Shown here: positions 15,985 through 62,676 of the stretch, one piece after another
How positions within the stretch are numbered: the first letter of the stretch is position 1
Layout of the letters: each line of letters opens with the position of its first letter
Origin: Heterotrichella gracilis
Lineage: Eukaryota > Sar > Xanthophyceae > Tribonematales > Xanthonemataceae
Reading direction: 5' to 3'
NCBI GenBank assembly: GCA_032358255.1
Contig: JAULBX010013872.1
Location: 33,112-97,111 of the forward strand
Length of the DNA: 64,000 nt
Position numbers and translations under genes: made by a program
The notes under the pieces: generated by a model
Told to the model about the DNA's origin: nothing
Database searches by the model: none
What the model saw: only the letters and a program-made list of their open reading frames with translations

Positions 15985-18987
<3,003 letters not shown>

Positions 18988-36362: not shown

Positions 36363-39300
36363 ATGGCCACACTCGCCCCCAACCCCGGTCCCCGCCCCCT
36401 ACCCGCGGCTCCAACCACCCGCAGCACCTGGGCCCTCCAGCAGCTCTCCCAGGCCACAGCGGCAGTGCAGGCAACTGTTGCTGGGTGCGCTTGCGTTGAC
36501 CCACTGGGGCCGCTGCTTGCCCTGGCACACAGCGGCGAGGTGCGCGACCAGGTGGCGCAGGTGGCGCGCCAGCTGGCAGCTTTGAGTGGGGGAGGGGAGG
36601 AGGGAGGAGGGAGTGAGGCACTGATCAGGGAGGCGCACAGGTAGGGCGCATGGGCAAAAACTGGGCAGCAGCCTTGTGCACTTCACACACGTGCCTGTGG
36701 CCTGGCCCTCACCCCCTGGCCCTGCCCCCTCGGGGAGCCTATATAACAGGGATGACTGCCTCTTTGGTGGTTAGGTGGTTGCCCTTGGTCCTTGGGGACG
36801 CCACTTGGCTGCACAACGCACCACACACAGTTGAGCTACGCCATGCCCACTACCCTAAACCAGCAGCAGTTGCTCCTCACTGAAATGATTTTGCGCCACT
36901 GTCAACCCCCCAGGCGTGGCTGTGTCCGCACCCTGCTGGACCCCCTTCACCGCGCCAACACACCAGACCTCCCCTCCCTCATCGCCGCCCTCCCCCCTCT
37001 GGACCGTGCCCTCCTCACCCACCTGCTGTGCGGGCCCCTAGCTGTGGCCCTGTGTGCGCTGCTCACCCCCGCACTGCACGCTCGCCACCCACCACACCGC
37101 GACGCGCCAGCTTACCTAAGCGACCTGATAGGCCACGGCCTGGGCCCTGCCACGCATGTGGTGGTCACCGCCGCCGCTGTCAACAGGGCAGGTGCTCCCT
37201 GTGATCCGCCTGCCGGCGTGTGTTTCCACCCCCCTGAGAAGTACGCCGCCATGTCCATGCACCTGCTTGCGCTGGTGTGCCAGTGCGGGGAGGCGGCGGG
37301 TGCGCGGGGTGCCGAGCGACTGCTGACCAGCTTTGACTACTGTGGTGCAGTGGGGCTGGTGGTGGACATGATGCAGGCGCCAGGTGAGGGGTGGGGTGAT
37401 GGGGTGCAGCGGGGTGCGTCACTTCTGGATTGGTGTCAGCTGTGTGCGTCTTCAACACTGTCCGTACAATCGCCGCCCCCACATTCGACACTGCCCCCTT
37501 GGTGTACCCACCCCCTCCTGCTCCTCCTGCAGGCTTTGCCTCCTCCCACCGTAGCCTGGCGCAGCCCTTTGGTGGCGCACTGCACGCACTCACACGCTGT
37601 GTCCCCCCTACCCTGCTGGCCCAGCCTGCCTTTGCTGCGCGCCATGTGGCCATGCTGAGGGGGGAGGGGCTGGGGGAGGTGGTGTTCAGGCTGTGGAAGG
37701 AGGTGGGTGGGGAGGCGTTGGTGCCTGGGCATGCAATGTGGTATTTGCCTGCACACCGCGCATATGCGGGCTGTGCACTACTGGAGTGTGCGATGGACGG
37801 GTGATCTGGCTGCTTGCTGGTGAATGCAAGTACAGCCCCGCGCAGTGGCCATGGCATGGTGGGTTGGCATGAGGACACAGGGCACCTGTGCCCCTTACTC
37901 CTCTCCCTGCCTCTTCTCCACCTCCCACTGGCCATGTCCCCCCAGGTTGTCCACGACGAGATGCTTGGCCTCATTGCGCGGACCGCCTTCTGGGACCGCA
38001 GTGTGCTGGCGGTGGACATGGCGTGGGTGGAGCGGGTGGCAGGGCCGCTGGCAGCTCAGGTCATGGCGCTGTCAGAAAAGAGGTGTGGTATTGGGTTGGG
38101 ATGCCATGTGGTTGGGTGGGTGCTGAGCTGCATGAGATGGCAATGTGTAGCCATTTCCTGATCTTGAAGATGCACCCAATGCACGGCACGATGTGTTGGC
38201 ACACCTGCAGTTCCAATGCACATGTAGGACCACCTTCCTCCTCTCCTTCTCGCCCCAACTCCACCCACCTGGCTGTCCCAGGGATTAGGGACCAGGGCTA
38301 TGGTATTAGCCATAGCATGTAAAATTTGGCTGTGTGTGTGGCAAATTTTATGCCTCCCGCCATTTCCCACTGCCCAAACCATCCATGTACCTGTTGCAGG
38401 CTATGTGTTGACATGCGCCCTGTTGTCCCCCTGCAGGGACCAGCTCCTTGAGCCTGTGTATGTGGAGTCGTTCCGCACAATGCTGCAGCTGTGGGCGGAT
38501 GGGCGCGCGCGCTTTGGTTCACGCCTCGTGCAGTGCATCACAACCATCGTGGCGGCACTGGCAGCGGGCGCGAGAGTGGGGCAGCGCGCCAGCCTGGGGC
38601 GGGTGGCAGGGGCAATGGTAGCAGTGATGCGGCGGTGGGAGGTTGCGCAGTGGGAGGCGGGAGCGGGGGGACAGGTGAGGAAGGACCCTGTGTTGAAAGT
38701 TTGACAAGCCTAAGGGTTAACGAATGTGACGCATTGCTTGGATATTGGCGGCATTGGTTCACATCCCCAGGCACGTGGTGATTATTTGTACCAATTTGAG
38801 ATGCAGTGCCACATTTCTTTACGACCCCCACTCCCCCTTTCTACAGTCTGACGCCAGCAGCGAGTCGTGCGCCCTGCACGCGCTGCACGCCGATGTGGTC
38901 AGCCAGTGCCTGTCGGTCATCACAGACCTGCTGTGGCCAGGCAGGGAGGAGCAAGGGGCGATGAGGAGGGAGGTAGGGAGGGGACAGGGTAGCGCCAAAA
39001 GCATGGTGGACATGGTCAACAGCTAGGACATGTGTTGCACATAAAGGGTAGCAAATCTGTGATGATTACATGGGTGACTGACTGCATTCATATCTGAGCC
39101 AGCTGTCCTTGAATTTTATGTTCTGCGCTAGATGTCTTTGGGTCAGGAGGGGACATGCAGCCTGCACTGTGCATGCAGGGGCTCCGCCTGCGCTCCTAGG
39201 CAAGGCAAGGAGGCTCACTATCCCACCTGCCCCTTGCAGATCACTGCCATCCCGCTCATTGTTTCCTCCTATTGTACCCCCTTGGAGACACCATCTCAGC

Positions 39301-42300
39301 AGGGGGCCGAGTGTGCTGTCCCATTGATGCGCGACCTCCTTGACAGAGGCCTCATTGTTTGCGTGGAGGGGCTGATTAGGCACCACCTCAGGTGACGCCC
39401 ACACGTGCTGCCTCTTGATGTGCTCGCCATCCTCGTACCAACTTGCTGTAGCACATGATCACAGGTCCATGCTGCTGCAGCCCCTGAATACAAATATTGA
39501 TAGTGTCAGTAGCCTTCGCTACGCTCATGTGTGCAAGTCTCGCTGCCCTGGGCACAACACCCTCCCTGGTTTCCTGCCCTTCAGGGCCCCCAGCAGCCAG
39601 CCCCTCTCCTCCCTCCCCGTCCGCCAGCTGCTGCCGCTCATCCTGGCCACCAAGCACATCACCACACTCAACCACTACACACAGGTAGGTGAAGGGGGAA
39701 CGGGGTGGCAGGGGAAGGTGTCGCTCAGGCTGCACATGTAATGGTAGAATAATTGGTGCCCTCGGTGATGACAGGATTGCACTGCAAGTTGCAAGTTACA
39801 ATTCAAAAGTCAGCTGCAGGGCAGCGCAAATATTACATTAAATATCCAATAAACTGAAACAAAACAACAATTTATTTGTTATCCCCTCACACTGCAACAA
39901 CAGAATAATTATAATATAAAAGAATGCTTCAAGCCATATTAACAGCTAAACACTAGACAATTCAGTGTACCTCTTATATTGATGAAGGCATTTGTTTATG
40001 GGGCATTTGAAGATATGCTTGATGCCTACAGTAGTTGCAGAGCATGTCAGTTATCGTCATTCCACATAATGCAACGTACTGTGAGACCAGCACAGCAGCC
40101 TGGGATGCAGGCCATGGTGAAGCCAGGCAGTTGGCTCTGTCGCCTATCAAGGGCCGACTGACTGATGGCTGTGCTGCTCCCCTGCAGGTCACCAGCCTGC
40201 TGGCCACATGCACCAAGGTCCTGCGCAGGGCACAGTACTCAGGCGGGCAGGAGTGCCATGCGGCGCATCTGCCCTGGCTGGTGCTGTCCACCAACTTGAT
40301 TGTCACACTCACCCTGCCCCAAGGATGGATCATTGAGCCGCACTCAGTCGCGTTCCCAAAGTACGCCCTACCACCACCAGTTAGTTAGTTACACGCATTC
40401 CAGCAATGCAGCCAGATTAGCAGTCGGTGTTCACATGCGCCGCCAAGCAGCTCTTTCCTGGCACTCTTTGAAACCGCCTATTGATCCCATGCAACTTGTT
40501 GCTGCTGGAGAAGGTCAGCCCATGTAGCCCTTGCTTTACCTACCCCTTTGCCCCCTCTACCCTACCAAACAGCATTTAGGCCATACCATCACCAGCGTCT
40601 CACCATTCTGCCTGCTTACAAGTGGCAATGCTGATTGTGGCCTGTGTGGGCCTGAGCTGAGGCAAGCCAGGGCCCGTCATGACATTGCCGGCACGGCATC
40701 CCTTGCTTGAGGCCAGCCGTTCTAACCACACCTTGCAGGCTCGTCACCTTCATCTCGGTGCACTGCCTGCCCGCGCTGGTCTCCCTCTTCCCATCCCCAG
40801 GCCCCTCCACTCAGCCCTACCCCTCGTCGCTGTTTGGCCTGTGCCTGCTGCGCGTGTGCCACTCGCTGTGCGCCCAGGGCCTCACCCGCCACGTGGCGCG
40901 CAGCGGGGCTCCCGCACTCATGGCGCAGGCAATGGAGGCAGGCAAGCTGGTAGGTGCAGGGAGCAGATCATAGAGGTCATAGAGGGTTTTCACTGACGGC
41001 CAATGCTTGCACAAGTAGGGCATAGGAATGGGTTCAAGTTCACGTGGTAAACAGCCGGGTAGTGAATGCCAAAACCATCTCATATGTATTTCTGGGTATT
41101 ATTTGTGAATGCCAAAACCATCTTATGTTTATTTCTGAGGATTATTTGAAGTCTTGAAGCTCGTGTTTGTCTGGAGGGTCTTGAGCGCAGACCACGGCAT
41201 GATTTCTGCACCTGCATTGCCTCAACCCCCAACCCTCTCTGTGTACAGCACGAGCGGGACATCACCGATTCGCGCCTGCTTGCCCTCATTGGGGTGGAGT
41301 CCTGTGGCCCCTGCCCCCCCATCTTTCCACTGCAGCGCCAGCGGCCACTCTTCCAGGAGACGCTGGACCCGCCTCAGTGCTGCAACACGTGCTGCACCAA
41401 CCTGGCAGGTGGGCAGGGTGCGGGCAATGGGTCTTGTTAGGGTTCCCCGAGGGCATATGACCCGTAGCGAAATCTATGCCCTCATGGTAAGGGGAGGCTT
41501 GCACCTGGTGCTTGGGCAGGCGCTGGGCTGCCATGCAATGGCAGGCTTCCGATTGGTTGGGTCTGCATGGTGTCCTTGCGGTTGGCTTGAGACAAAGGTG
41601 CCACTGGGCCTTAAAAACTGTCGTGCTACTGCGCACTTTCACGCTGTATGTTGGCTGGGTGAGACAGTGCAGGTCCATGGGTCCTCCCCTCCCCTCCCCT
41701 GCTCACACCTGTCTCCCTGTGCCTCAGGACCCAGCGAGTCATCCCTGGCACTGCACAGCTGCGCAATCTGTGGCACCGCCACGTATTGCACCAAGGTACG
41801 AATGAATCACATAGATGGTGGACAGGAGACGACCTTGCCCAGCCTCCTTCCTATCCTTGCCATGGCAGTAATTCTCCTCGTTGCAAAGAAACTGGCAAAA
41901 TTTGGGGTTTCCAGTCATTGTGGGCACCTATTTCAATAAAAAGTACGTAAATGTTGGTGGTTCTACACTGGAAACAGGTCAAATATCGAGAAGATTATTA
42001 AATTTGACCCAGGAAACGTGCTCACCACGGACACCAGTTTGATGGCATGACGATTTTTTGCTAATAAGATGTAAGCACTGCGCCATGGGCAGCGCCATGT
42101 ATGCGTTGGTTGCCCGTGCACGGGTGTTGTGTGCATCTGGAATGTGCATGCTTATTGCTGCATCTGGACCTGCTGCTGAAGGCGGTGGTGCAAAGTGCCT
42201 AGGTCATCTGCGCATCCTCACCTTTCAAGGTATGCCAACCCCGTTGTCCACTTCACCACTCGCTGGTAGTATCATGGCCCCCCCTTCCCCCCTTCAGGAG

Positions 42301-45300
42301 TGCCAGCAGGATGCCTGGTGGCAGCACAGGCCCATGTGCCAGCAAGCAGGTGGAGCACGCCCTGAGAGCACTATTGCACCCATGGAACGATCACGATCGC
42401 AGCCCCTGGCATGGTAGGTTCAATGCTGTTCTGTACCCACTGCATACTGTTCTGAGCCAGCCCCTTCGTGTGTAGTCAGCAGGGGTGTGCCCCACCTTTG
42501 CCTGGGCATATCCATGGTGGCAGAGCGGCAGGTGCAGTGCATGCATGTGACAGGAGAGCGCAGCTCATATCGAAGCTTGTATGCCGCGTTCATTGCTTGC
42601 ACCTCGTTTGTTTGCCACCCCATGCGCCACCTGCCACACACTATCCTCTCCTCTGCAGGGTGTCGCCACCACCCTCGCCACTGCCGGTACCCGGGTCAGC
42701 TGCCTCAAGCTCTCATCCCAACCCCCCAACCCAAAGTGATGCACTGGCCAATGGCCGTGTTATGGGTGTGCCCGACACACGCACTGGCAGCCTGGTGCCA
42801 ATCCCAGTTGAGGTTCCTGCATGGAGCCACAGCCTTGCCACGCCTTTTGCCGCAGCCGGCAGCGGCGAAATGCAGCGCTCGCAGTCCGACCTGAGCCAGC
42901 TGTTCCAGGCATCCCGGGAGCGTGATGTGCGTGAGCCTTCCCTCCCGCCTGCGCCCCAAAACTCTGTGTCTCCTGGCCTTGGTCAGCTGTGGCTTCCCGC
43001 GGACCTGTCCAGCACCAGCCTGTCGCTGCCTGATGGCGATGCCAACCCCTTTGACCCGGACAACCCATCCCTGGAACTAGGAGCGCGCATGGCAGGGGGT
43101 GCGCCACACAGCTCAAGCGGGGTGGATACCACGGATACATCATTAAGGGTGCATGCAGGGGAGGACATGGCGCTGGCTTCAGGGGAGATTGCAGATGCGC
43201 AAGGTGAACGCCCTCCGCGTCACTGACTGTGTCACTTGTCACCAGTGTGCCCATCTACACTCACAATCTTCCTCTGACGTCTGACATGTTCGACACCATG
43301 CTCATATTGCTGTTGGTCAAGCTCTGGTGTGATGTGCAGGTGATGGGGACGGCATTGCTGATGTCACTGTTGCAGCCATGGCAGGAGTTGCCATTGGCGC
43401 AAGCGCCGTTGCAGCTGTTCATTCCCAGGCAACCCAGCAGGCGGCTCAGAATGCCACGAGCCACCCGTCCCCCACACCAGATGCAGCGCCAGAGCTGAGT
43501 TCGCGCTCCTCGGATGCGGCTGCACCAGATGCAATGGGGCTCTCAGGAGCAGACCAAATTCACACACCCTCTGACAGCCATATGGACAGCCTGCAGCCAT
43601 CTCAGCCTGCAGCAGTTCTCAATGACCTGGTCTCCTCGGTCTCCCCCACCACTGCACCTGCCGACCATCCAGGCGGTGTTGCGGCCGATGACAGTGCAGT
43701 GCGACACCCACATGGTCGCACCATGCCTGATGGGCCTGATGGGCCTGACAATCCTAGCCCTGAGACGCTACCAGCTGCCGCCACCCCCTTCCCTTCCCTG
43801 GTGGTCGCACCTCCCCCACCCAATCAGCCCCTTGGCACCAGCATCTCCAGCCCCCAGCCCATGCCCCTGGCAGCCACAAGTGGAGTGGTAGCCCCGGTCA
43901 CAGCCCCAGTCACCCCACAACCACCTGCAGAAGCAGCAGAGGCACCTATCGCCCACCCGAGCGCAAGCGTTGGCACTGCTTCACCAGCGTCACCTGGGGC
44001 CCCAGTGCAGGCCGGCGTACTGCACGCGCAAGGTGGGTGTCGAACCAGTGCATTACCTGCTGGCCACCACAGTGTCATGCTGAGGGTGCATGAAGTAATG
44101 TGCAACTCAGCAACAGTATACCACAAAATCTTTGCGTATATCAAAATATCTGGACCGCCCTGTATAGTGGCCAACCATTGCCTGCCACATGCCCCAGTGC
44201 AAGACAATCTGAATAACTATATGCTGCCTCCACATCCAGGCGGCTCATCATCAGTGGCAGCTCCCGTGGCGGCGGCAGCGGGTGGGGGGCTGCTGGCCGG
44301 CATGTGGTTGGGGGGCCGGCGCAGGCGTCAGGACAAGGAGCAGCAGGCGCCACAAGCGCCACCGCCACCTGAGGCACATCCTGACAGGACCCAGCCTACA
44401 GCAGTAGAAACTGCAGAACCGCTGCCACCTGCAGAGGTGGCAACAGGCCCCAGTGGCGCTGCATACAGCGGTCAGTCTCCGGCAGTGTATGGCGCACCAT
44501 CTGCTTCAACCTCCCAGTCCCCTGCTGTTATGGTGGCGGCAGGTGTTGCAGCTGGGGCTGCTGCAGTGGCGCTGGCCAGCGGTAGTACTGGGCCAGAGGC
44601 GGCAGGTGGCGACACGATTCACCCAGGTACTGCCAACAATGTGGATGCTGAGGTGGCATGTCCTAATCTGCAGGTGGCCTGTTATGCCCAGCATGTGCAT
44701 GGTGTAGCTGATGCATCCCCCTGCATACAATGCCTGTGGTGTGGTCTTTGTTAGATCATGCATGCCACACGAAGCAGTACGTGGCATTTGCTAACTCTAA
44801 TCCGTGGTGCATTCATCCGCAGCACCGCAACCACCCGCTGTGGTCCAACAAGGGGAGGCACCACGGCAATGTAGTGAAGATGGCGACTCCCTGCCCGATG
44901 CCCTGAGTATAGAGCCTTCTGCACAACAGGACGCCGGCACCCCTAGTGTGATGGGGATGGAAGCGCAGTCTCCTTTGCCAGCCACCCTACCTTTGACACA
45001 TGCTCCAGAAAGGGCCCTGGTTACTGCTGTACCAGCCGATCATGCTGTGCAGCCCCCACCAGCAGGGCGAAGTGATGCTGAGTGGGGAGGGGGGTCTTCT
45101 GAGCCTAGCGACCAAGCAGTGGTAGCATCACCAGTGTCCACCATTGCCCAGCTGTGGGGTGATGAGCCTGGCTGCGAAGAGGAGCAAGGCGCTGAGGCAC
45201 CAAGTCATGCTTTTGCACGAGAGGAGCCTGGCACCACAGCACCTGGCGAGGCAAGTACTGCTGTGCAGCCAGCAGCGCCTCAGCAAGATCAGTCACTATT

Positions 45301-48300
45301 GTCTGTGCACAAGGCAGATTCAGCTGAGCCAGCAATGCACCCTATGCTTGCGCAGCCCACTGAGGGGAGCGTTGCCCACCAGCATGAGGTTGGTGCTGTA
45401 CCCCAGTGCGTGGAGCAGCATGAGCAGAGCGGGTCCCAGGGCGCATCAGCTGGCAACTTGCAAGGGGAGGAAGCCATGTCCACCAATGGCCTAGGGGCGG
45501 GGGTGTGGCTGCCGCATGAAACCCCTGCAGGGCCTGCAATGGTGGGCGATGCGCATTCATGTGATGACGATCAGTGTACAGCGGCAGCCAGCGATCATGT
45601 GGATATGTTTACTGATGAACTTCAGGATGGAACAGATAGTGGTCATCTGGACACAGTTGTGTCCTCTGCGTCAATCAAGGCCCATCCGCCAGCCCCTGCC
45701 AGCCATGAAGCGGACACCACACCTGCGCCTCATGCTGCCTTGCATCCAATTGACCACACCTCTGATGCCCCAGCTTCTGCAGTGAAGGTCACTGCAGCCC
45801 CTGACCAGCAGTGGTCTGTCTCCATCGAGGCAGCCAGTAGCGGAGATCACATGACAAGCGGGGACCAAAAAGCCGATCTAGAGGAGGTGTACCAGGGAGA
45901 GGTGCAGTCTTGTGTTACTGTGCCGCTGGCCTCTGCAGCAGCAGCATCGGCAGTCCCTGTGGCAGCTCCTGTGGCAGCCCATACACCATCCACCAGCACA
46001 TGCCCTAGCCCTTCGCTGCAGCCTGCCACCCGGCCCTCCCCTCCCACCGCTACATCAACACCAGGTGTGACATGTGCATGCATCCAGTGTACATGTTTCA
46101 TGAAATTGTGCCTTGATCATCAGCATCTGCACTGCTGCTGGAGGTGTTGCACCTTGTGTTGACATGCTGTGGGTCCCAATGCAGGTCTCCATCAGCCATC
46201 TTCTGCACCCGTGGTTGCTGCAGCTGCAGCAGGTGGCCTGTGGGGAGGGCTGGGTGCCATGTTCATGGGTAGGCGCAAGGGTGTGGGCAGGACACCAGCT
46301 GCTGATGAGGCAATGGCAGATGGGGATGGATATAGAGATGCACCAGGAGTCAGCGCCAGTGCTCCATCCAATGACACCATGGATCTGCCAGTTGGCAATG
46401 AGAGTGGCAATGTGTCTGATGAACCACCAGGTGCGTGAGCACCCATGTCACAGCTGAATTGAGTGCTCCTGATGTTCTGCAAAGCCTTGTCCACCTGCAC
46501 TGTAATTGTAGTCGCTCATCTGGATGTGTGTACACATGCAGCGCTGTATCCTGCCGAGCTGTCGGATGCCACATCAGCGCGTGCAGCTGCGCCCCAGCTT
46601 GCTATGGACCGTGGTGTGCCAGCCGATACCGATGAGGTTGCAGGTATGCTGCATGGCAGCACTGCTTGTCTCACACCTCTCATCTCACACCAACCCCCAC
46701 CTCAGCATTGCAGTGCCGCAGCAAGATACTAGCTGGCTGCACATCTGGGAGGCTAACTGAGGTGCAGCCCCTGAAGTGCCTCAAGGCTACTTGTCCCCTC
46801 CCGCCATGCGATATCTTCCTCTGATATCATACCCTGCAATGCGGTATCTTGCTTTGATATCTTGATCAGAGCTCATTTGATGTGCAGGTGACACTGAACC
46901 CGCCGCACCTGTGCATCATGTGGAGCGCCTAAGAGGAGGATCAGCAGGGGATGATCACGAAGTGGTTGGGGAGAACCCTGACCTGTCATCTATGCAGGAG
47001 GATACTGTCTCTGTTGCAGTCCCTGATGCCATGCCTACCAATGGCAGTGCCAATGCAGCTGGCTTGGCACACTCTCCTCAGGGCGCACCAGCCAGTGCAC
47101 ACGCAGCCCGTCTGGAACCCCTACAGTCTTGTCAGGACGCACCAGAGGCACATGCGCAGGAGCCTGGCAACCCCTCCCCATGCCCCACTGTGGCCCTAGA
47201 TGCCTCGCCCTCAGATGCTGCCTTGGACCACCTGCGTGTTGGTGCAGAAGGGGCGTTGGGAGACGCAGGGCCACTGAATGTGCCTGGTACCGTGCATCAA
47301 GCGATGTTCGATCAGCATGGCGGTGACGCAGAGAGTAGGACCTCCCCTGCGCATGCGCCATCATCGCGCGTGACTCCTGCCCAAATGGATTTTGCCACAG
47401 GACACGCCATAGTGCAGCAAGCAGCTGGCAGCATCGCCCTTGGCGAGCTTGGTGTGCCACATGAGGTTGCAGCAGGTGGGGGTGCACCAGGTGATAGCAG
47501 TGAGCCTGGCGTCGGCGCCAGCACATCTGCAGCACCCTGGACAGAGGAGCTGCTGCCACCTGGAGCAGCTGCTGATGCTACGGGAATACTTGAAGGAACC
47601 TCTGTGCTTGCTGCACCCCCTGGCGATGTGCCATGGGACGGAGTAGCAGGCGGCGAGCAAATGAAGGCCAACTTCAACCACGCCGAGGGTATGCCAGATG
47701 TGCGGGAACCGTCAACGTCAGTACATACGTCACTGGCTGCAGCTGCCGCAATGACCGCTGCATCCCATTCAACCCCTGCAGCACCACCACCTCCAACCCC
47801 ATCACCTGAGCCAGCCACAGTCACAGCCACCACAGCCCCTGGATCACAAGTTGGGACACCCACTGCAGTAGGCCCTCCTCAAGGTACGTGCTTATAACCT
47901 GCGTTCCCACCCCTGAGTTGGAGCCATTGCGCCCTACCTTCCTGGCAAGCACTGCTGTGCCGCGCTGCATGCCCACTGGCTAGCTGTGTGCACGCAGGCT
48001 CCGCAGCTGCACCACTGGCGGCTGCAGCTGGTGGCGGCATCCTGGCGGGACTGGGGTTTATGCTCATGGGCAGCAAGAAGAAGAAGCGGCGCGGTGATGC
48101 AGCACCTGTGCCAGCGCCTGCTGCCCCCCTTGCCTCAATTAGTGCCGGAAAGGAAGCCGCACGCCCACAAGATACTGCAGCTGCTCCTGAGCAAGGTGTG
48201 TGGACCCTGGATAGTGTTCACACCAGGGCCTACTCTAACATCCATGCATTGTGCTGTAATGATGACAATACTGTTATTTTGGCCAAGTACTGCCGCAAGC

Positions 48301-51300: not shown

Positions 51301-54300
51301 GCCGCAGTGTCTGGTGCAGCAGGCTTGGGCGTGCTGGCGGGGCTGGGTGCACTGTTGGGCGGGGGCAGGAGGAGCACGGGGCAAGGGGCGCCACCACCAC
51401 TGGCTGCAGCGAGCCACACGCCGGCGCCTGCCGCTGCGGGGGTGCAAGCTCGTGCTGGCGCACTAGGTGGGATGGAGGCAGGGGGGCATGGCACAGGGGC
51501 AGGGACCCAAACCAGGCAGCCCGCACGCGTGTCCGGTGAGCAGGAGAACGGGACACCAGGTGGGTGGCCCGGTTCTTGCATGGCCATGTGGGCACCAGTA
51601 CTGCAACAGGTGTTGTGCAAAGGGCATGCATGTGGCTATGCCCTTGTGTAAGTTGTGTTCTTGATGGCTGCCCGTATGTGTGAGGTGCACCTTGCGCTGT
51701 GCATGCCCCCTGGTATGATGCACATGGACATCCACCGCATGATGCGCATCCACCAGGGCCGGAGGACAGGGATGGCCGAGAGGGTGAGAGCTGGCTATGT
51801 ACTGCGGAGGATGACAGCATTGCAAACCCTACTACCAGCAACATGCCGCGTGCGCATCCTGTTGCCCAGCTAGTAGGCTCTGGGGATGGGGCTGTGCAAG
51901 GCGAGGAGGCCGTTGCTGGCGTGGAGGGTGAAGAGCAGCCGGCAGTGATCAGCAGCCAGCTACCTACCAGCCTGTCTCTGCAGGAAGCTCTTCTTAAACC
52001 CACCACAGCAGAGCCGGCGTCAACCACCAATCTAGAGCCAGTACCTACCATCAATCTAGGGCCAACTGTGCTGCAAGGTGATTACCCTTGATCCTTTGCC
52101 AATGCCTTGCATCACGAAATGCCAACAACAAACCCATGTGTTGTGTGGGGTCGCATTGCAGGGGGCGCGGCTGGCCCAACGACAGTGGTTGCGGGTGCAG
52201 CTCGTGCCGGAGTGTTTGCCGGACTGGGGGCGCTGTGGTTTGGTGGGCGCACCGCCAGGAGCACACGTGAACCCACGGCGCACAGCGGCTCGGTGTACGC
52301 AAGTGAAACAGCCATGGCCTTGGCGGGCGCAAGTGCAGAGGCAGCAGAAGGTGACACACCTTGTGCAGGGCATGTGTGGGTGTGATAGCAGCTGGTTTCA
52401 TATGTGCCTCCGCACATCCCCTGACGCATGATCATGTTCCTGCAGGCGACATTGGACCAGCTTTGCCGCAGGGTGAGCAGCAGTGCCAGACCAGCAGCGC
52501 AGACAGCCCTCAACCACGCTCATTTTCAACTTCGCCCATCGACGTCCACAGTGCCCGCTCTGGAGAATTTCCTGTGCAGGAGCATGAACCCATGACCGGG
52601 GCAGGGGGGGCACTGCTGGCCTTGCGCAGTGCCAGTCCCCCCCCCGCCCCGCCCCGCCCTGCCAGGTCCCCCAGCAGACCCAGGTCTGTGCCCCATTCGC
52701 CCCAGCGCCCCTCCTTCCTTGCCAGCTTCAGGTCCGTGCCTTCCACGCCCATGGGCAGTCCAACAAAGCGAGGTGCGCCATGCATGTTTGCAGACATGTC
52801 CTACGGTGCACACTACTTGCAGGCTTCAGAACGCAGAAATGTTCAGGGGGCAAGGGCCGCACCCACTGGGAGTGGGGGGACATGCAGGGGGTGCAATTAG
52901 TGTCGATCAAATACATTACATCATGTCATTTTATTTATCAAGCAGGCACAAGAATTGGCCTCATATTAATCATTTAGTATTCAGCATGGATGTATTACAT
53001 CATATAATGTGATTCATATTGTAAAAGGTGTCCACTATACCGTATTAAACATTAATCCTACACATTATGTAATATGTGGCCACTCGCCACCTTTGGGACC
53101 CTATGGGCGCAACCACGCACCTGCAGCCTGTCGTGGCTCAGCGCGGCTGTGCCCTGGGAGGGTGCTTTCTTTTTTTTTTGCATCGCGTGAGGCTCAAGGT
53201 CATGCAACTCAGGATGCACACGTGTATTTTGCCGCTGTGGTTGCTGGTGTAGGGTTGAGGGTGTAGGTCATTTAGAACGCCAGCCTTGTTGTGTGACAAC
53301 AGTCTTTTCAGTTATGTACTACAGGGTTAAGCACAGCATGACTGGTGGTATTGTGTGTGTATAGTTGTGGATCCCATAGCTGAAGCGGATGCTGCGGCAG
53401 CGGGTGTTGCAGCTGTGACTGGCGCCGGTATGGTTGGTGGCTTTGGCCCCGTGTGGCTGCGTGGGAGCCAGGGCCAAGTCCAGGTGCAAGCCCCACAGCC
53501 CAGCACAGCCGTGCAGGACAGCATGCAGATAGCTGAGACACCGCCACATCACCCAGATGTCGGCGCGAGCGATGATGCGCAAGGTATGCTGTCCCCTTGA
53601 GCTGCTGCAGAAGCGTGACAAGCTGATGCTCCCTACTGGCTGGATTGGCTGCCTTGCATGCTGTCGGCGCCCGCAATTAAAGTGCAGCACATTGTGTGTC
53701 ACAGGTTGCATTGCACATTGTGTTGCAATGTAGCATGTGGATTGACACTGTGCAATCTGCCTGCGTCTCTGGTGCAGCCCCTGCCCTGTTGGCGTCTCCG
53801 CTGGAGGATGTGCCGGAGGAGGAGGCCCAAGCTTCAAGTGGTGGGGACTGGCCATCACAAGGTGCCACGCCCCAAGGCGACACAACGAAGGGCCACCTCC
53901 CACCTGGCGCCGTCCTTGAACCAGAAGGTACTGTCAGTGGCTGGTGCTGCTCTGACTGTATCATGTTGGTGGGACTGGGTGCGGTGTGGCGGCAGGTGTC
54001 AGGCGGGGGCAGCACAGCAGCGGCGTTGGGGAAGGGTGGCCATGCAAGTAGTGAGCAGGAAACTGCGGTGTCTGGTGATGGTAGGTGCCTGTGATGGTGC
54101 TGTGCACCACCTAAAGCAGAAGCATTGGTTGAGTACGCAATGCACATTCCATCCATGCATCAAACTACCGTATATGATGCGCGTGTGCAGGTACCCTTGC
54201 CCCACCGCAGCTTGACGCAGCAGCCAGGCACCAAATGGAGGAGCAGGCAGATGCACCAACTCTGGAGCCAGCGCGCGCTACTTACAGCCCCAGTGCCACC

Positions 54301-57300
54301 AACTACTATGGTCGCTACCTGGCCCATGTCGCCCGTGAAGGCTCGCCCACACCAGGTTCACCCTCAGCCCTCCTGCTTGTCCCCCTGCCGCTGTCCCAAC
54401 TGCCATCCCCCCCCGTGGCAAGCACAGCCGCCACCCTGCAGCAGCAAGGGGAGAAGGACTTAGATGCTCAAGGTGGAGATGGCACGCAAACAAAACCAAG
54501 TGGTTTGGCTGACATCCAGATGGCGTCAAGCAGTGATGCTGTGGCAGAGGGGCAGGATGTTGTTTCTCCTGTCGATGGCTTGGTGATGGCTGGTTTGGGC
54601 CAAGGTATGCATGCTACTTGGCTGAGAATGCTGGCTGTCGACATCCTAATCGCGCCTTTAGAGGTACCCATTCAGGGTTGAATGCTGCCTGTTTTGACAG
54701 TCCCACTGCTGGCCATGGTTCCATCTCGCCCCCCTGATGCCTGTGAGGCCTGCTTTCCACTGCTCTCTCATTCGCCGTGTCTACCACTAGGTGATGCGGT
54801 TGACGGCACAGCGCACATGCCACCGCCAGCACCTGCACCAGTAGCAACCCCAATACGATCACCTCCATTAGCTCCAATGGTAGCGGTGGGCACCACTGAT
54901 GGGCTGGTGGGAGGGCTGGGTACCACGGCCACGGCCAGGCACAGGGTGCAGGGTGGGGCAACCCTACCTGCTGCCGGGGTCAACGCAGTCAGCGCTGCAG
55001 AAGCCAATGCAATGCCGGAGTCGGAGACATCAAGTGAACAGCACCATGCAACTGGCTTTGGTGGGGCTGGAGATAATGCCAGTGCAGGTGGGTGTTGCTG
55101 TGACTCGTGCGCCTTGAATGCTTGTGCTGATTGTGTAATCATTTGCATGATGCTGTGGCCTTTGGTGTGCCCCGATGATGCTCACCAATAGGACCTTAGC
55201 GTACAATGCATCAGCATAATGGTGAACACGCTCCTCTATTTTGACATATTCTGTCAAAATAGTTATCAAATTTAAATAATTTGTTTGTGTATTGTGCCCC
55301 TATCTATCTGGTCCCAGTGTTTGATCCGTCCACATGGTGGTGCCGCAGGCGGAGCCCCTGAGGCATTTCCTTTGGTGGTGCCACCTGGCAGAACCTGTGC
55401 AAGCGAGTGCGAGGCTGCAGACCAAGGGGAGGAGGAGGAAGAAGAGGTGGATGCAGAAGAGGGGCAGGATGTGGCTCGTCACAAAGAGGGCAATAGTGAT
55501 AAGGAGGGTGGAGGCCCAGCAGCCCCTGATTCGGTGGGGATTGGCCTGGCGCCTGTGGACAGAGCCAAGCAGGGCCGCGGCAATGGCAACCAGGGTGGTG
55601 GTTCGGAAATCCATGGTATGTACATGTGCAACATTGTACCTCTGCTCAATATGTGCACATGCCATGAGGCTGGTTGGGGGTCAAACGTGTGTGCATCACA
55701 TGGTTTATCGCATCCTGAATGTTCCCATGTGTGGATGCACGGGACGGCGGCATGGCCAGCGCCTCCCAACTCGGAAGCTGTGTCGCCTTGCAAGCAGGTG
55801 TGGTACAGCCTGCCAGCCTGCTATTGGAGGAATTTGCGTTGCATGGCTGGCCATTGGCGGAGCATTTGGTTCCTGCTCTTGACGATGTGGCGGTGCCAGC
55901 ATGTGGGTGTGAGCATGATGCATGCTGTCTTTGCACAGAGGCATCCCATGTAATCTGCTATTATTACTTCTATAAATAAAAGTATACTCAATACTGGTAT
56001 ACTGTATACTTTTGATTTACTCGTTACCATATTATGTAGTTAGTGGGTACTGCAACACAGTATGCAATTGCCCACTTGTACGCTGTCAACACTTGGTGAT
56101 TGTCATGCAGACGGCGAGGGCATTCCAGTTCCAGGAGAACATGATGATGGTGGTGGTGGTGATGGTCACGCACGGCAGACAGCATCGGACACCTTGCCAC
56201 CCCAAGCGTGTGCGCCTCCAGCTGCGCTAGGTGTGGCAGCTGCGCCAGGGAAGAAGAAGAAGAAAAGGAACAAGAAGAAAAAGCCCCAGCAGGCCATTGC
56301 ATCCACAGCCAGTTTAGATGGGGGAGGGGAACAAGGTACGCAAGCGTAATGTTTGAAGGAGGAGATGCCTGATGACCTACTCCACCTTGGTTTGCATGGT
56401 ATGCATGTGCAGTGCTCATGACTAGCGGAAGTTTGCACCACATGGAAGCACACATCGAGACAGTGTCTAGGAAGGTAGCTCTAGAAGTCGCTGCGCTGTT
56501 CTTGGAATACGTTATTCTCTTTGTAGCAAAGAATCTGCTTACAAAGATGCTTTCCAGCAGTACAGCCAAATTAACAGTCTGTCTTACATGCCTTGCGCCA
56601 ACCAGCCCTGTCCTGCCACTGCTTATACCATCTTTGCACCGGCATTGTCAAAGCAGCTATATCATGTAACACCAGGTCAGCCCGTGTGGCTCTAGGCCTG
56701 CTTACAGCGCACTGGCTATGTCCTCTTAAACATAGCAGCTTGGGTATATTTTCATCATGCCCTAGCCAACATAGCCTGAGTTCACTGAGCCTAGAAGAAA
56801 TAGTCTTGCATTTGCATTTTTTAAGCAACATCTGCACTGGAAAATGGTCAACCCTTCACACCCCTCGTATCATCCTGAAACAGTTTATTTTTGAAACACT
56901 TTCAATCTGCCTAGCTGGGCCTGCAAAATAGCCCAGTTGCCAGTCCCACACAACAGGGTGCACACACGCACATAACTGCACGGCCCCATTTTGGTGGACA
57001 GTGACACCTGCCTAGTGCCAATGAGCTTGCAAAGTGCACCATGTGTAGCAACAAATGACAGGCACTTAAGAAAGTCTGACTTGTGCCAGGTTTCGCAGGA
57101 GAGGGGCCCAAGGATTCTGTTGGCTCACGTGGAGGTGATGATGGGAGCAGCGGCAGCAAGGATTGTGCAGCAGCAGCAGTTACCAGTGGTGCTGAGTTGG
57201 TGTCTACAGGAGGTAGCCAGGCAGTGCCAGGGGCCAGTGGCAGGTTACAAGGGGATGAGGGGCTGCATGGGTACATCACACACCTGGAGCCTAGACCATG

Positions 57301-60300
57301 GGGCCACGAGCTATCTGGGACAGATGGTGAGCCACTTGCATGTCATTTACTTGGGGATTTACGATACTACGTATGTTTGAAACAAATACTTAATAATACG
57401 TATTTTAGCCCCTTTTTGGATCCTTACGCATTATATCAGGTGAAAAATACGTTAAGTGAATATTTATATTCAATGAAAATGTATGCTCAAACCTGTATTT
57501 CAGCCGTGGGCAAGTAGGGTTTGGCAAAATGAGTTATGTTGTGGGCTTTGTCATGTGGTTGGGTATGGCTTTTGTCTTTTTTCCCTTGAAATGACTAATG
57601 CATCTTTCACATACTTTCAACGTATGTAAAAATAAAATATGTATTATTACGCATTACATACTCATTGCGTATTACATATTACGTATCATGAATCCCTAAT
57701 TTTACTGCGGCTGTGCAGTAATGATGTGGGCCACGCTGCGACGTGTGTTGACATGACTGTGGGTCGCAGGTGCTGGAGACACAGGCAGTACTGGGAGCAG
57801 GGGGACTGGCGGCGTCGCAAGCGCTGCTATGGTGCATGCATCTCAAGAGGGTGGTGTCATGAATGAAGGGGAGAAGATGGCTGTGCACGTAATGCCAGTT
57901 GGCGACTCTGCTCACCATAATGCAGCTCAAGGGAAAAATGCTAGGAAGAAAAAAAACCGGAGGAAAGCCAGGCAGGCCATGGCAGCCAGCCTTCCCACTG
58001 CCGTCATGGCAGGCAGTGTTGATGGGCCAGCTGCCTCTTTGCCCTCCATGCCAGCCAATCACTCGTTGACTGCAGCAGAGCCAGTGCCAGCGCTGGCCAG
58101 CATTGAGCCCCCCACCCCACCAGCCTTGCCTCTTGTGGGTGTGGCAGCAGCAGCGCTGACAGCTGGGGTGGGCACCGCATTTGTGCTGCGTCACCAGGAA
58201 GCACCCCTGAGTGCGGTTGCCCCTGATGGTACTGCCTGTCTGGGCCAAGGCGAGGGCACCACCAGCCCTGCCTTTTCAGCACTCCTGGGTCCCCGACAGC
58301 AGGATGATCTTCCAGCTGAGCAGCCCACATGCCCAGCCATCGAGACTAGCTTGTATGAAGGTGCTGAAACGAGCACAGCAGCTGGAGATGTGTCCACACC
58401 TGGAGATACCGTGTACTCGCTTGATTCACTGGTGCCAGCTGTTGCACAAGGTGCGGCCAGCCATGATGTCAGCACTGAAGCCCTACCGCAAACCTACTTC
58501 ATGGTGGGTGGTGGCGTAGCAGGGGGGGTGGAGATCATTGAGGATCACGGACGAGGGGTGGGGACACCTCAGGAGGATGGTGGAGTGATTGTGGATGCAC
58601 CTCCAACGGCTGAGTATGCTAGCAGCGTGTGCGAAGCGGGATCAGAATCCACCAGAAATGTGTTCTCTTTGGCGGACGTTGCTGAGCATGTGGCATCATC
58701 TGAGACTGGTGATGACAGCCGCAGGGATGGGAGTGCGTTGGTCACAGGTCAGGACAACAGCATGGCTGCTGATCTTCAGGCCCTGGCCTCTGCCAGCATG
58801 CACATATCACCACTACGTCACCCCTGATCACGCCGTAGCCCATTGCATGTCGCAAATGTTGTCGAGGAGACATGGGCGGTTGGCGGCGCTCTTCTCAATC
58901 ACCGATCTTTGCCTGTTTTGTTCCTCGCAGGCATCCAGGCCTCGCCTTCCTTGCCAGCTGCTGACAAGCCACTCACCAGCACTGCTGCTGGCCAACTTCA
59001 AGCCAGGCACTCCAGTGTGATGAGACCTCAGGGAGAGCCAGCTATGTTGTACATGGGTGGCCATGCGGCTCAGGGAGCTGCTCATCTAAGAGACCCTGGC
59101 GTCGTTTGCACTGATGGCGCAGCGGAGTTAGTGGCGCTTCATGCTGGTGTTGTGGTGGATGCTTTTGCAGCTGACATGGCGGGGGAGGCTTGCGCGGATG
59201 ATGACATGGTGGGTGATGCATGCACAGATGCCAATGTTGAGCAACCTTCAATCCATACTTGTGTGGCAGCCATGCGGCATGATGTGTATACCCAGGGGGT
59301 GGTGTTACACCTTGACTTACAGCCATAGCCTTGTAGTGGTGCCACTCTGTGCGTTCAGCATATAGCAGCATGGCAGCAATCATGGGACCAAGGGGAAATA
59401 CCATCATATAGTCAGCAGGGAATGTAAAAATTAATCATTAACGAATAAACCAGTAAATGGCTTACTTTTGCACAGGTGGATGCGCTACCTCATGCTCCTG
59501 TGGATGCGGATGCTGACATGGTCGATGAGGCAGCAGCATGTTTGGCAGCCCAGCGGTTTGACATGGCCGTGCATGTGGAGCAAACCCCTGATGATGTGGC
59601 AGCACAGCAGGGCAATGTGGCAGCTGATGTGGTGGGAGCAGTGGCAGCGCCAGGCGATGGCGGTGTGGCTGAGCAAGCACAGGCGCACACAGCTGACGTT
59701 TTCTTGCCGCCCGTCCGCAGGGCTGGTGTGCATAGCACGATGTCTGTGTCTCAGGGTTCGCTGCCAGTGTATGCAATTCAGCAGGCACCTGGTGATCATG
59801 TGGCAGTATGTGAGATGGCCGATGGTGTGGCACACCAGGAAGTGCCTGTGGCACCTCCTGCATCCCCTCACACCTACACACCTGCCTTCCAACCAGTGGA
59901 AGAGGCCACGAGGGGCACTAGCAGCGGCGTGGACATTGACATGGCCATTGGTGCTGCTGGAGTCACCCCGCTGGCTGGGTCATCACCTAACATGCTGGCA
60001 GTGGCAACCAGTGTGCTGCCAGCAATGGGAGAACTGCAGGGGGATCACAGGGGACGGCCATCAGCAACCCATCCACAAGGTGCATTGCCGCAGGCCTGGA
60101 GGGTGGCAGGTGCGCAGCTCAATGCCATACCTGCACTTGCGCCCACTCGGCATCAACCTTCAACTCCTTACAAGCACCGCATCTGCACAATTTTCATCAC
60201 ATGTACGGCTGCGTAGTCATCTGTGACAGCATACCCGTTCCATACATGTTGGTGACATGTTGGTGGCACGAGTTGGAGTCAAAATAACATACATCTTTGC

Positions 60301-62676
60301 ATGCCATCATCCCCACCCACCCCTACAGGCTTGCCCCACCTGTGGCGCTCCACCGCTGATGGCACCAGCTCCAGTGGGGAGTCAGACTCTGAGCCGCCCT
60401 TCAAGCCGCCGCCAAAACCCAAGCCAGGCGCACGCAACGCAGTCAAGTCCCTGCACAACAACTGGTAATGTCCATGTGTACCCACTGATCACATAAGGCG
60501 CATGCACACGCCCTACAATACAATTATTTGGTGCACCCCACGTGGGCGTGGGGCGTTGTTCTTGACAGAAACTCCAGGCGGATTCGACAGCAGCAGATAA
60601 TATATTTCATTTTCCCCAATGTATATGGTATTTGCTAACCCACTGTTTGGCCTGTCCACAGGTACGGTGGCTACGTGGCAGACAGCGGGTCAGACGACAC
60701 AGATCCGTCCCTGGCGCACCCCACCAGAGTGCCAGCACTCAGCACTGGGCCACCTTTGCAATCGCAGTCCAACAGTGCAGAAGCGGCAGTGGCAGCAGGA
60801 GCAGAATTCTGCAGCGTTGGCAATGTCCTCCCGGAGGGCTTTGGAGAGTCTGATGGGGCCACGCTTACCGCCCCGCCGCTGCGCATGCTTGATGCGTTGG
60901 CATTGGCGGTAAGCATTGGGCCTGCAGCATGCGTCCAGTCAGGAGGCACGACTGAGATTGTGCAAATGGCAGCAGCCGTGGAACCTCCTGCTACTGACAG
61001 CGTTGAAGCAGCGCATTCACTTCCACAGGATGGGGTACAAACTGCCCTCTATCCCTGCGTGCATGTCCCGCGCCTCAACTTGCCCCTGCCAGGGTACCAA
61101 GCGGATGTCTGTTGTATGGAGGAGCATGCAGTGGTCTCAGTGGGAAGCGGGGGAAGCGGTGGTCCACGGGCCGGCGTGGCGCGCGCTCTCTTCCCTGATC
61201 TGTCTTCAGGACACGGCATGGCATCAAATGCTGAGGTACCTCCTCTTGGCAGTGCGCGGATGTTTCCTCAAGAAGGTGGTTTGGATGTGCCAGAGGGTGG
61301 GAGAGAGCCCTCACCCCCCCTCGGCGGCATGCACCCGGAGGAGAATGCCGAGTCGGTGGCATCATTATGCGGTCAACCTGAGGTGCGCATGACATATTGT
61401 TATGTGGCCACATGTAAGTGTGAACTTGCATTGCCGGTGTTGGCACTTCAAATTGATCGGATGGGTTTGTACTGGTACCATATATAAAAGCATAGGGTTC
61501 CTACTAAAGTTACAGGGTTGGTTCTAGGCAATATCCTCCTCTCTTTTTTTGTGTGTTCCTCGGGTTGCACTGTGCCTTGCCGGGTGCCCTGCTAACCCTT
61601 GGCGCCGCGGGAATTCCATATACAGGGTATGTCATGAGAGACATTTTCCATTGCGCAGGCCCAGCCAGACCGCGTTGACGTGATCGCGGCGCTGGACCAG
61701 GCCTGGCAGGAGCCGCGTGAGGCTGGCAGCAGGGGGACATCGCGCCACACCACGCCGCGGAAGCGATCGGCGCAGGAGGCACGCAAAGGAGTTCCAGCGC
61801 AACAGCCGCAGGTGTGCTGATGAGTTGCTGACATGCATTTTCCTCCTTATATTCCCTGATCAATGAGGGGTGTGATGGTGAGTTCCAACACCCTGTGAAT
61901 TCAAACATTGATGATGAATTCCAATTTAATTAATTCAACACCCTGTGAATTCAGACATTCATACTGAGTGAATCTCACCTCGCCGTCATGCCAGTGCATT
62001 TGGCCGTGACAATGGTGGCACTCCAATCTTTTGTAGGTTCACCCCTCGTCCTCTGCTGCCCCGCCCCCTGCCTCCCCTGCCCATTCCCTTGCCTCCTCCT
62101 CCTCCTCCTTTGCCTCACTCCTGAGCGCAGCCAGCCATACCAGCACCAGCAGCATTCTCTCGCGCTTTGCGGGCTGGAGGTGGGCACGACACAAGAGGCC
62201 CAAGAGGTGAGTAGTAAACACTTACATGTGCATGAACATTGTGCAATGTCCTGTAGCCGGCAGCAGGCTTGGCTCATTCCGCATGTAGTTGCCACACACG
62301 TTGCTGGCGCCATGTCTGTTACCGATTGTCCATGGATGCAGGAAGACAATGATTGGGTCAAGCTAGAATTGCCAATCAATGTGTCGAACAAATGCATGTT
62401 GTTTTGCAACCATGTCCATGGATGCGTCCTGACACTGTGTGTGCCAAGGCGTTATGGTATGTGTCTTCAATGTTTTTCATTCTTTTACTTTTTTCTTTTT
62501 TTATGCGATAGTGTTTGTCATGGGTGTGCAGGAACCACAGCTTTGTGTCGACCGCTGCCCCCACAGCGGGCATTGACGCGCCGCCCTCCGGTCCCCCCAT
62601 CTCCCCGATACAAGATGCAGCTGAAACAGGGCGCAGGGCCATGGATGGCCTGGATCAGGTGTGGTTTGGGGCGTGA
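36363..62676 (+). CDS. Giant MYND zinc-finger protein with modular glycine-zipper-like tail
   Basis: Modelled as 45 exons, about 4,961 residues, all phases consistent. N-terminal part: 36363-36640, 36914-37383, 37533-37702, 37946-38082, 38437-38674, 38847-38972, 39240-39391, 39585-39684, 40188-40360, 40739-40949, 41249-41408, 41728-41795, 42298-42413. Residues 1-720 look alpha-helical. Residues 730-775 are a full MYND finger: C-x2-C, then CAIC, YCTKEC and a final His-x3-Cys. The tail (exons 14-45, from 42659) is Ala/Pro/Ser-rich and acidic, with hydrophobic Ala/Gly modules followed by Arg/Lys. Exon 34 is Glu-rich, exon 36 Lys-rich, exon 29 Ser-Pro/Arg-rich. The C terminus (SESDSEPPFK, WYGGYVADSGSDD, ending DQVWFGA) is less repetitive. 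MYND fingers bind proline-rich partners. No function is known for the tail. It could instead be two genes, split after the MYND exon. Confidence 0.62.
40395..40530. repeat. Dispersed intronic repeat, copy 1
   Basis: In intron 9 of the giant gene. It shares CCAGATTAGCAGTC with an AMT1 intron copy (about 25806-25845). It also shares a further block (CCAGCA, GGTCAGCCCATGTAG) with the copy at 56553-56692. The copies are diverged and no coding capacity is seen. Confidence 0.5.
41062..41147. repeat. 43-bp tandem duplication in intron 10 of the giant gene
   Basis: Two adjacent 43-bp units (41062-41104 and 41105-41147), both starting GTGAATGCCAAAACCATCT, differ at a handful of positions. Confidence 0.8.
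41249..42413 (+). other. MYND zinc finger encoded across exons 11-13
   Basis: Pattern by residue: Cys730-x2-Cys733, Cys750-x2-Cys753, x4, Tyr758-Cys759, x3, Cys763, x7, His771, x3, Cys775. This is an exact MYND consensus (eight metal ligands, two zincs). The joins at 41408/41728 and 41795/42298 are needed to complete it, which supports these splice sites. MYND fingers are protein-interaction domains. Confidence 0.85.
42659..43203 (+). other. Exon 14, first exon of the low-complexity tail
   Basis: It joins to the MYND exon through TG|G (Trp) and continues VSPPPSPLPVPG. It is Ser/Pro-rich, with SQSDLSQLFQASRERDV and DGDANPFDPDNPSLE. It ends with phase 1, starting the long series of phase-1 introns. 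If the tail is a separate gene, an ATG at 42762 in this exon is a possible start. Confidence 0.55.
43340..44032 (+). other. Exon 15, first Ala/Gly hydrophobic segment of the tail
   Basis: It opens with an acidic DGDGIAD and then VAAMAGVAIGASAVAAV, an alanine/glycine-rich segment without the basic end of the later modules. A 200-residue Pro/Ser/Ala linker follows. It is the first of the symmetric phase 1-1 exons. Confidence 0.55.
44254..44328 (+). repeat. Glycine-zipper-like module 1 (exon 16)
   Basis: It encodes VAAPVAAAAGGGLLAGMWLG followed by GRRRR: an Ala-Pro start, Ala run, Gly-Gly-Gly, Leu-Leu-Ala-Gly, aromatic, Gly-Gly and four Arg. It is at the 5' end of its exon. A second Ala/Gly stretch (VMVAAGVAAGAAAVALASG) lies later in the same exon, near 44527-44583. 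Confidence 0.65.
46205..46279 (+). repeat. Glycine-zipper-like module 2 (exon 18)
   Basis: It encodes APVVAAAAAGGLWGGLGAMF then MGRRK. Same order as module 1: Ala-Pro, Ala run, Gly-Gly, Trp-Gly-Gly-Leu-Gly, hydrophobic, Gly and basic. It sits near the start of an 82-residue symmetric exon. Confidence 0.65.
48006..48092 (+). repeat. Glycine-zipper-like module 3 (exon 21)
   Basis: It encodes AAPLAAAAGGGILAGLGFML then MGSKKKKRR. This is the clearest copy and nearly repeats module 1 over its first half. Six basic residues follow the hydrophobic part. The exon is 66 residues, phase 1-1. Confidence 0.7.
48391..48549 (+). repeat. Ala/Gly-rich exon 22
   Basis: A 53-residue symmetric exon containing GAAAVFAGAGAGAAAAQ, a diverged relative of the module without the basic end. 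A short Ala-Asp repeat (ADADADA) then ends in a Gly junction. Confidence 0.5.
49407..49487 (+). repeat. Glycine-zipper-like module 4 (exon 24)
   Basis: It encodes AAPAAAATGAVLAGVGTMHL then GGSNRPR. The order is Ala-Ala-Pro, Ala run, Gly, Val-Leu-Ala-Gly-Val-Gly, Gly-Gly and basic, as in the other copies. It is at the 5' end of a 64-residue symmetric exon. Confidence 0.65.
51301..51375 (+). repeat. Glycine-zipper-like module 5 (exon 26)
   Basis: It encodes AAVSGAAGLGVLAGLGALLG then GGRRS. The core VLAGLGAL is shared almost letter for letter with modules 4 and 6. The exon is 98 residues, phase 1-1. Confidence 0.68.
52179..52259 (+). repeat. Glycine-zipper-like module 6 (exon 28)
   Basis: It encodes TTVVAGAARAGVFAGLGALW then FGGRTAR. 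The core GVFAGLGALW-x-GGR closely follows module 5. The exon is 63 residues, phase 1-1. Confidence 0.68.
52773..53364. other. AT-rich intron 29 of the giant gene
   Basis: A 592-bp intron whose middle (about 52905-53080) is AT-rich, with repeated TACAT/ATGTA words, unlike the GC-rich exons. An open stretch from 52823 (acceptor-like TTGCAG, 'GFRTQKCSGG') may be a lost or optional exon, but it lacks a phase-matched donor. Confidence 0.4.
53391..53468 (+). repeat. Glycine-zipper-like module 7 (exon 30)
   Basis: It encodes AAAAGVAAVTGAGMVGGFGP then VWLRGS. It is more diverged, but keeps the Ala run, Gly-x-Gly, Val-Gly-Gly-Phe-Gly and a basic residue at the same spacing. Confidence 0.55.
53960..54010 (+). 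repeat. Partial module 8 (exon 31)
   Basis: The used frame gives IMLVGLGAVWRQVSGGG, matching the second half of the module. The matching Ala-rich first half appears in a different frame just upstream (AGAALTV), so the copy looks broken by a small frame slip that leaves the long exon open. Confidence 0.45.
54868..54945 (+). repeat. Glycine-zipper-like module 9 (exon 33)
   Basis: It encodes LAPMVAVGTTDGLVGGLGTT then ATARHR. It keeps Ala-Pro, Gly, Leu-Val-Gly-Gly-Leu-Gly and a basic end, but has lost much of the hydrophobicity after the Gly core. Confidence 0.5.
55237..55261. repeat. Perfect inverted repeat in intron 33
   Basis: 10-bp arms TATTTTGACA and TGTCAAAATA around a 5-base loop, in an AT-rich patch of the intron. 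Confidence 0.75.
55978..56013. repeat. Perfect inverted repeat in intron 35
   Basis: 10-bp arms AAAAGTATAC and GTATACTTTT separated by 16 bases, in an AT-rich intron segment. It can form a cruciform or RNA hairpin close to the acceptor of exon 36. Confidence 0.75.
56111..56335 (+). other. Exon 36, lysine-rich block
   Basis: A 75-residue symmetric exon. It has a His/Asp/Gly-rich start and the short Ala segment AALGVAAAPG, followed directly by GKKKKKRNKKKK. The block resembles a nuclear localisation or acidic-lipid-binding cluster. Exon 38 has a second basic block, ARKKKNRRKARQ. Confidence 0.6.
56553..56692. repeat. Dispersed intronic repeat, copy 2
   Basis: In intron 36 of the giant gene. 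The block CCAGCAGTACAGCC through GGTCAGCCCGTGTGGC parallels the copy at 40395-40530 in order and spacing. Confidence 0.5.
57355..57710. repeat. AT-rich insert with TACGTA-type palindromic words in intron 37
   Basis: About 350 bp rich in ATTACGTAT, ATACGTAT and ATTACGCAT variants on both strands. It is sharply bounded by GC-rich exon sequence. It may be a decayed miniature inverted-repeat element, but clean terminal repeats were not identified. Confidence 0.4.
58126..58197 (+). repeat. Module 10, last hydrophobic segment (exon 38)
   Basis: It encodes LPLVGVAAAALTAGVGTAFV then LRHQ. The order is Ala run, Ala-Gly-Val-Gly, hydrophobic and basic. It is the last recognisable copy; the exon is 326 residues and the last of the unbroken phase 1-1 series. 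Confidence 0.6.

Follow-up and report, generated by a model that had tools for sequence, protein, structure and literature searches.

A MYND-finger gene and a candidate orphan giant gene with an elastin-like exon plan in the alga Heterotrichella gracilis

The best explanation as a whole of the coding sequence at positions 36363-62676, to which we give a probability of roughly one half, is that a MYND-finger gene is followed by an adjacent orphan giant gene built of symmetric exons, the product of which would be a scaffold. The first gene (36363-42417) would encode 800 residues with a C-terminal MYND finger and would be one of the genome's large MYND set. The second gene (about 42.76 kb to 61.8-62.7 kb) would be giant, apparently unique and roughly 4,000 residues long.

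The window, i.e. the whole 64 kb stretch of DNA analysed, is the right-hand part of a contig of 97,111 bases (C140) in a genome of 68.5 Mb and 903 contigs, in which 43 chlorophyll a/b-binding matches were found. Genes were predicted with a two-strand gene finder written for this analysis, combining a codon-position Markov model with splice matrices and trained on the window and 19 further regions; in the left part of the window its output includes recognisable genes, three of which were confirmed with NCBIfam. From the ATG at 36363 the finder returned a plus-strand exon chain that is open throughout, with the same start and strand as had been proposed by the sequence-only reading. Closed at the stop at 62676 (E1-E46 plus E47), the chain comprises 47 exons, 14,562 nt and 4,853 amino acids with one stop, so that the long open chain of the sequence-only reading holds and its figures of 45 exons and about 4,960 residues do not. 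That reading had also pointed to a CDS of an exact multiple of three in consistent phase, which is true of the 14,562 nt but is not evidence by itself, since any chaining of exons imposes both.

There is indeed a long coding structure here. Of 50 exons, 44 were returned unchanged by a model whose training had left out 36-64 kb (hold-out), and the tail exons E14-E41 hold no stop in 3,400 true-frame codons versus 54 and 164 in the other two frames. The in-frame coding score was above zero in 48 of 48 exons, a result that is partly circular as the tail was in the last training round of that model. Antisense coding was rejected, the finder still picking the original strand when given the reverse complement of the region. 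The 3' end of the chain is insecure, lying at 61820 (hold-out), 62676, 63810 or the contig end depending on the run; the predicted exons E41-E47 (58931-62676, plus strand) are of mixed phases and may end at 61820 or at 62676. Along 60329-62676, third-codon GC (GC3) alternates by exon (E42 0.52, E43 0.77, E44 0.55, E45 0.76, E46 0.73, E47 0.67). As a guide to gene ends the TGTAA poly(A) signal was useless, being found within 400 bases downstream of 13 of 35 predicted genes versus 14 of 35 in the reverse-complement control.

The predicted MYND gene (36363-42417, plus strand) consists of E1-E13, with mixed intron phases, and runs to an in-frame TAG at 42415-42417. Its finger is divided between E12 (41728-41795, first part) and E13 (42298-42413, second part), both on the plus strand, and in translation contains CNTC, CAIC, YCTKEC and HRPMC, which we take to fit the Cys/His zinc-ligand pattern of zf-MYND. 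The finger had been recognised in the sequence-only reading and is genuine: zf-MYND (Pfam PF01753) matches residues 730-775, near the C-terminus of the 800-residue part, at E 1.6e-5 and with 25.3 bits, above the curated cut-off of 22.7. A PDB sequence search of the MYND part matched the MYND end only (best E 0.0095, SMYD1). Of 161 zf-MYND candidates in the genome as a whole, 150 were scored, and at least 142 matches were found at E<=0.001; together with the 43 chlorophyll a/b-binding matches, this would fit a green alga. There is nothing exotic about the MYND half: MYND-bearing alpha-solenoid candidates are reported for green algae in a green-lineage solenoid survey, in which MYND fingers are the commonest annotation among repeat candidates, in Chlorophyta only (PMC13126933). 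With those candidates the gene shares zf-MYND, a long Leu/Ala-rich N-terminal region and many copies per genome, but other loci of its own genome matched the MYND protein at the MYND end only. If the gene ends at 42417, the finger lies about 25 residues before the C-terminus; among 14 distinct MYND loci with a recognised motif, this distance is 4-28 residues in eight and 65-591 residues in six. Behind a MYND finger on contig C118 (L025:5641-9303), the predicted exons encode a hydrophobic stretch of considerable length made of Ala/Gly/Leu/Val and an end rich in Pro/Ser, without a Pfam match; they may be a separate gene fused by the finder.

The disputed join lies at 42414-42761 on the plus strand, with an intron at 42414-42658 if there is one gene and a gene boundary if there are two, the first in-frame ATG of E14 being at 42762. 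At the end of E13, a possible donor at 42413/42414 overlaps the stop TAG. We favour two adjacent plus-strand genes over one by about two to one, with a probable boundary at 42.4 kb. Of the single MYND-plus-tail gene originally proposed, the exon chain stands, but the single transcript is called into question by the GC3 break and by a join score of 2.3 nats, a value that falls between a weak intron and a gene boundary. This score was taken free of penalties, with cuts allowed over 42.41-42.76 kb up to the ATG at 42762 and with equal ranges for introns and boundaries. Scores as low were obtained in 5% of 80 introns and scores as high in 8.75% of 80 artificial gene boundaries, and 15% of the boundaries versus 6.25% of the introns came within 1.5 nats of it, i.e. 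about 2.4 to 1. A boundary test with unequal cut ranges, in which 0 of 45 introns were as low as 2.3 nats, was unfair and was set aside; equal ranges gave the weaker result.

A single gene spliced from 42413 to 42659, whose product of about 4,850 residues would use its MYND finger to recruit partners to a modular scaffold, is a possible though somewhat unlikely alternative. The gene finder joins both parts in several runs including the hold-out, the acceptor at 42658 in front of E14 (42659-43203, plus strand, the predicted first tail exon) has the highest score of the chain (10.7), and the join reaches 8.2-10.1 nats, a usual intron value, if only cuts inside the intron are allowed. Furthermore, close MYND relatives extend past the finger, some across an intron: among the six closest in the genome, five (two on C118, two on C167 and one on C840) are predicted to run on and only the one on C305 stops, 7 residues after the finger, and by eye the similarity between the two C167 copies carries on past the next intron. 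However, when artificial pairs of genes were placed 345 bases from each other, the finder merged 47 of 60, and it split none of 29 single genes, so its preference for joining at 42.4 kb says little, and the extensions of the relatives come from that same finder. Against one gene there also stand the low join score once the cut may reach the ATG at 42762, the shift from mixed phases in introns 1-13 to phase 1 at the same place, and the drop in GC3 where the MYND domain ends.

From 0.78 over the MYND part, GC3 falls to 0.53 over the tail (E14-E41); 32 other predicted genes have values of 0.67-0.83. The best changepoint was located at codon 776 (771-778) with a gain of 91 nats, directly after the MYND match and 23 codons ahead of the exon join, and the step of 0.25 compares with a maximum of 0.19 inside the 32 other genes. 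As GC3 is already low in E13 (0.61), before the supposed boundary, and is back to 0.67-0.77 in E43 and E45-E47, it points to the end of the domain rather than to the exon join. Given the break in codon usage, one may ask how a gene of such length stays free of the third-codon bias that 32 out of 32 other genes checked display.

Taken as a gene of its own next to the MYND gene, the tail contains, from the ATG at 42762, 18% A, 11% G, 11% P, 9% S, 11% D+E and 5% K+R. Several of its exons begin with a hydrophobic Ala/Gly-rich segment of the consensus AAAAGGGxLAGLGxxxxG, often followed by Arg or Lys, and 14 hydrophobic windows were listed in the tail. Such modules, all on the plus strand, are carried by the predicted exons E16 (44240-44605, VAAPVAAAAGGGLLAGMWLGGRRRR), E22 (47998-48195), where KKKKRR follows, and E25 (49399-49590), by E28 (51266-51559) and its best match E30 (52162-52350), and by E32 (53386-53583), whose sequence has the module without a basic cluster. 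The linker exons are acidic and Pro/Ser/Ala-rich, and most of them have no similarity to one another. Among 27 exon proteins four pairs matched at E<=0.01, the best being E28/E30 (1.9e-5), whereas 40 local shuffles gave 0.075 pairs on average and never more than 1. The sequence-only reading described a modular tail, acidic and rich in Pro/Ser, with Ala/Gly hydrophobic segments; such a tail is both real and unfamiliar, and 11 pieces of it (which exclude E18, E19, E26, E37-E39 and E41) were without a Pfam match at E<=0.1. A PDB sequence search with E16 gave no good match (best E 0.13), and a second genomic copy was not found at E<=0.01 when five tail pieces (E14, E17-E20 and E33-E41 excluded) were searched against the own genome, the weak matches having E values of 0.022, 0.050 and 0.055. 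Of recent DNA-level repeats the tail holds only three short direct families.

We consider it improbable that the tail is in fact made up of at least two similar genes lying side by side, which tandem gene duplication would have produced. Weak links (1.6-4.7 nats) do occur at the introns 49083-49398, 52351-53385 and 57327-57769, and the finder breaks up the tail at 49.1, 52.4 and 61.8 kb when each new gene earns a bonus, but the splitting requires this artificial per-gene bonus, the other links amount to 6-29 nats, and phase 1 is kept on both sides of the first three weak links.

The exon plan of the favoured single tail gene is dominated by one intron phase, its main feature, which had escaped the sequence-only reading. 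Introns 14-40 are in phase 1 in 27 of 27 cases, so the predicted exons E15-E40 (43340-58747, plus strand) form 26 consecutive phase 1-1 exons, with lengths that are multiples of three in 26 of 26. Among 314 introns of other predicted genes, 163, 77 and 74 are in phases 0, 1 and 2, and the longest run of one phase is 9 (phase 0). As a null, expected phases were computed from the exon sequence alone, which fits 288 introns of other genes (expected 0.535/0.233/0.232, observed 0.535/0.226/0.240) and gives for the tail an expected 0.448 of phase 1 per intron. In addition, the tail's own introns were moved to random context-weighted sites in the same coding sequence; in 20 such simulated genes the finder called 43% of introns phase 1 (true value 43%), with longest runs of 2-6. 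The hold-out model placed 27 of 29 tail introns in phase 1 and its longest run was only 14, because doubtful introns were added inside E17 and around E31. An introner-like origin of the phase-1 introns was rejected, similarity among introns being limited to one 73-base pair, I38/I9. It is very improbable that the run has no special history and follows from composition (codons that begin with G, an Ala/Pro/Ser-rich protein) and from exon chaining: exon context favours phase 1 in the tail (0.45 versus 0.23 in other genes), donor-like sites within tail exons are mostly phase 1, and PMC8001218 ascribes the class 1-1 excess to Gly-rich proto-splice sites, but 27 of 27 has p=3.8e-10 under the exon-context null and the same protein gave no run above 6 in the 20 simulations. 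Gly-rich proto-splice sites explain part of the phase-1 bias, not the run.

The favoured reading of the tail, as far as its predicted features allow, is an orphan giant gene with an elastin-like exon plan. The human tropoelastin gene is described in PMC3458006 as having 34 exons, phase-1 borders and alternating hydrophobic domains. The tail shares the many exons, the phase-1 borders (uniform here in 27 of 27 introns 14-40, and in 27 of 29 in the hold-out) and hydrophobic Gly/Pro/Ala/Leu/Val domains that alternate with others. Unlike tropoelastin as presented there, it has long acidic linkers, Arg/Lys clusters and no known cross-linking; the likeness is one of exon plan, no sequence relation was found, and the 11 tail pieces matched no known family model of Pfam at E<=0.1. 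Brown-algal ROCO LRR genes, according to PMC11378527, have tandem phase-2 exons of 72 bp with one LRR each and are alternatively spliced. They share with the tail tandem one-phase exons of frame-keeping length in an alga, whereas the tail exons are of phase 1, 102-1242 bp long and without a known domain. The tail gene is not a member of the tropoelastin or the ROCO LRR kind, and no similar gene plan was noticed in the titles and abstract beginnings of the open-licence literature.

Runs of class 1-1 exons are also shared with metazoan exon-shuffled proteins, and symmetric exons were found here in 26 of 26 cases (E15-E40). PMC8001218 treats class 1-1 shuffling as restricted to Metazoa, explains phase 1 by Gly-rich proto-splice sites, and asks why the restriction exists and why class 1-1 predominates. 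While the metazoan proteins described there consist of folded domains reused in many genes, the tail is made of low-complexity modules at one locus of a photosynthetic genome, and the five own-genome searches found no reuse of its modules in other genes at E<=0.01. In a photosynthetic eukaryote, 27 phase-1 introns in a row, more than codon composition accounts for, would be a non-animal test of the class 1-1 ideas, in parallel to the test that brown-algal ROCO genes (PMC11378527) give for phase 2.

In the explanation that we propose, the giant gene would alternate between two sorts of exon, nearly all of class 1-1: short ones that start with a weak membrane-helix-like segment rich in Ala/Gly, in many cases with Arg/Lys after it, and linker exons that are acidic and rich in Pro/Ser/Ala. 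The simplest origin of such a plan would be repeated exon duplication followed by divergence, and we infer that the tail arose in this way. Any skip among E14-E41 keeps the frame, and 377 of 378 exon joins are without a stop. Since nearly every exon can be skipped in frame, many isoforms would be possible, varying in the number and spacing of hydrophobic modules; alternative splicing of the tail is predicted on these grounds, and it could vary the number of modules in the product. As a naturally occurring series of frame-keeping cassettes, the tail would lend itself to the search for combinatorial splicing. The hydrophobic segments, Gly-rich, about 20 residues long and flanked by basic residues, may insert in, or pack at, a membrane, and the acidic linkers would stay disordered, making a membrane-associated or self-assembling scaffold the most likely product, judging from sequence features. 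The boldest version, a giant orphan gene of the alga, possibly fused to the MYND protein and made almost wholly of interchangeable class 1-1 exons (Gly-rich membrane-helix modules and acidic linkers), whose skipping would yield combinatorial scaffold isoforms in an independent, non-animal elastin-type exon plan, is rather doubtful.

Elsewhere in the window, a predicted gene at 28997-35128 (minus strand) contains about six tandem copies of a 22-base unit at 31701-31839, and an ammonium transporter lies at 25074-27436 (plus strand; TIGR00836, E 5e-123). Moreover, NCBIfam identified a class III alcohol dehydrogenase (15985-18819, minus strand) head to head with an S-formylglutathione hydrolase (18908-22890, plus strand), with predicted starts about 88 bases apart, that of the hydrolase being uncertain; the two enzymes catalyse consecutive steps of glutathione-dependent formaldehyde oxidation.
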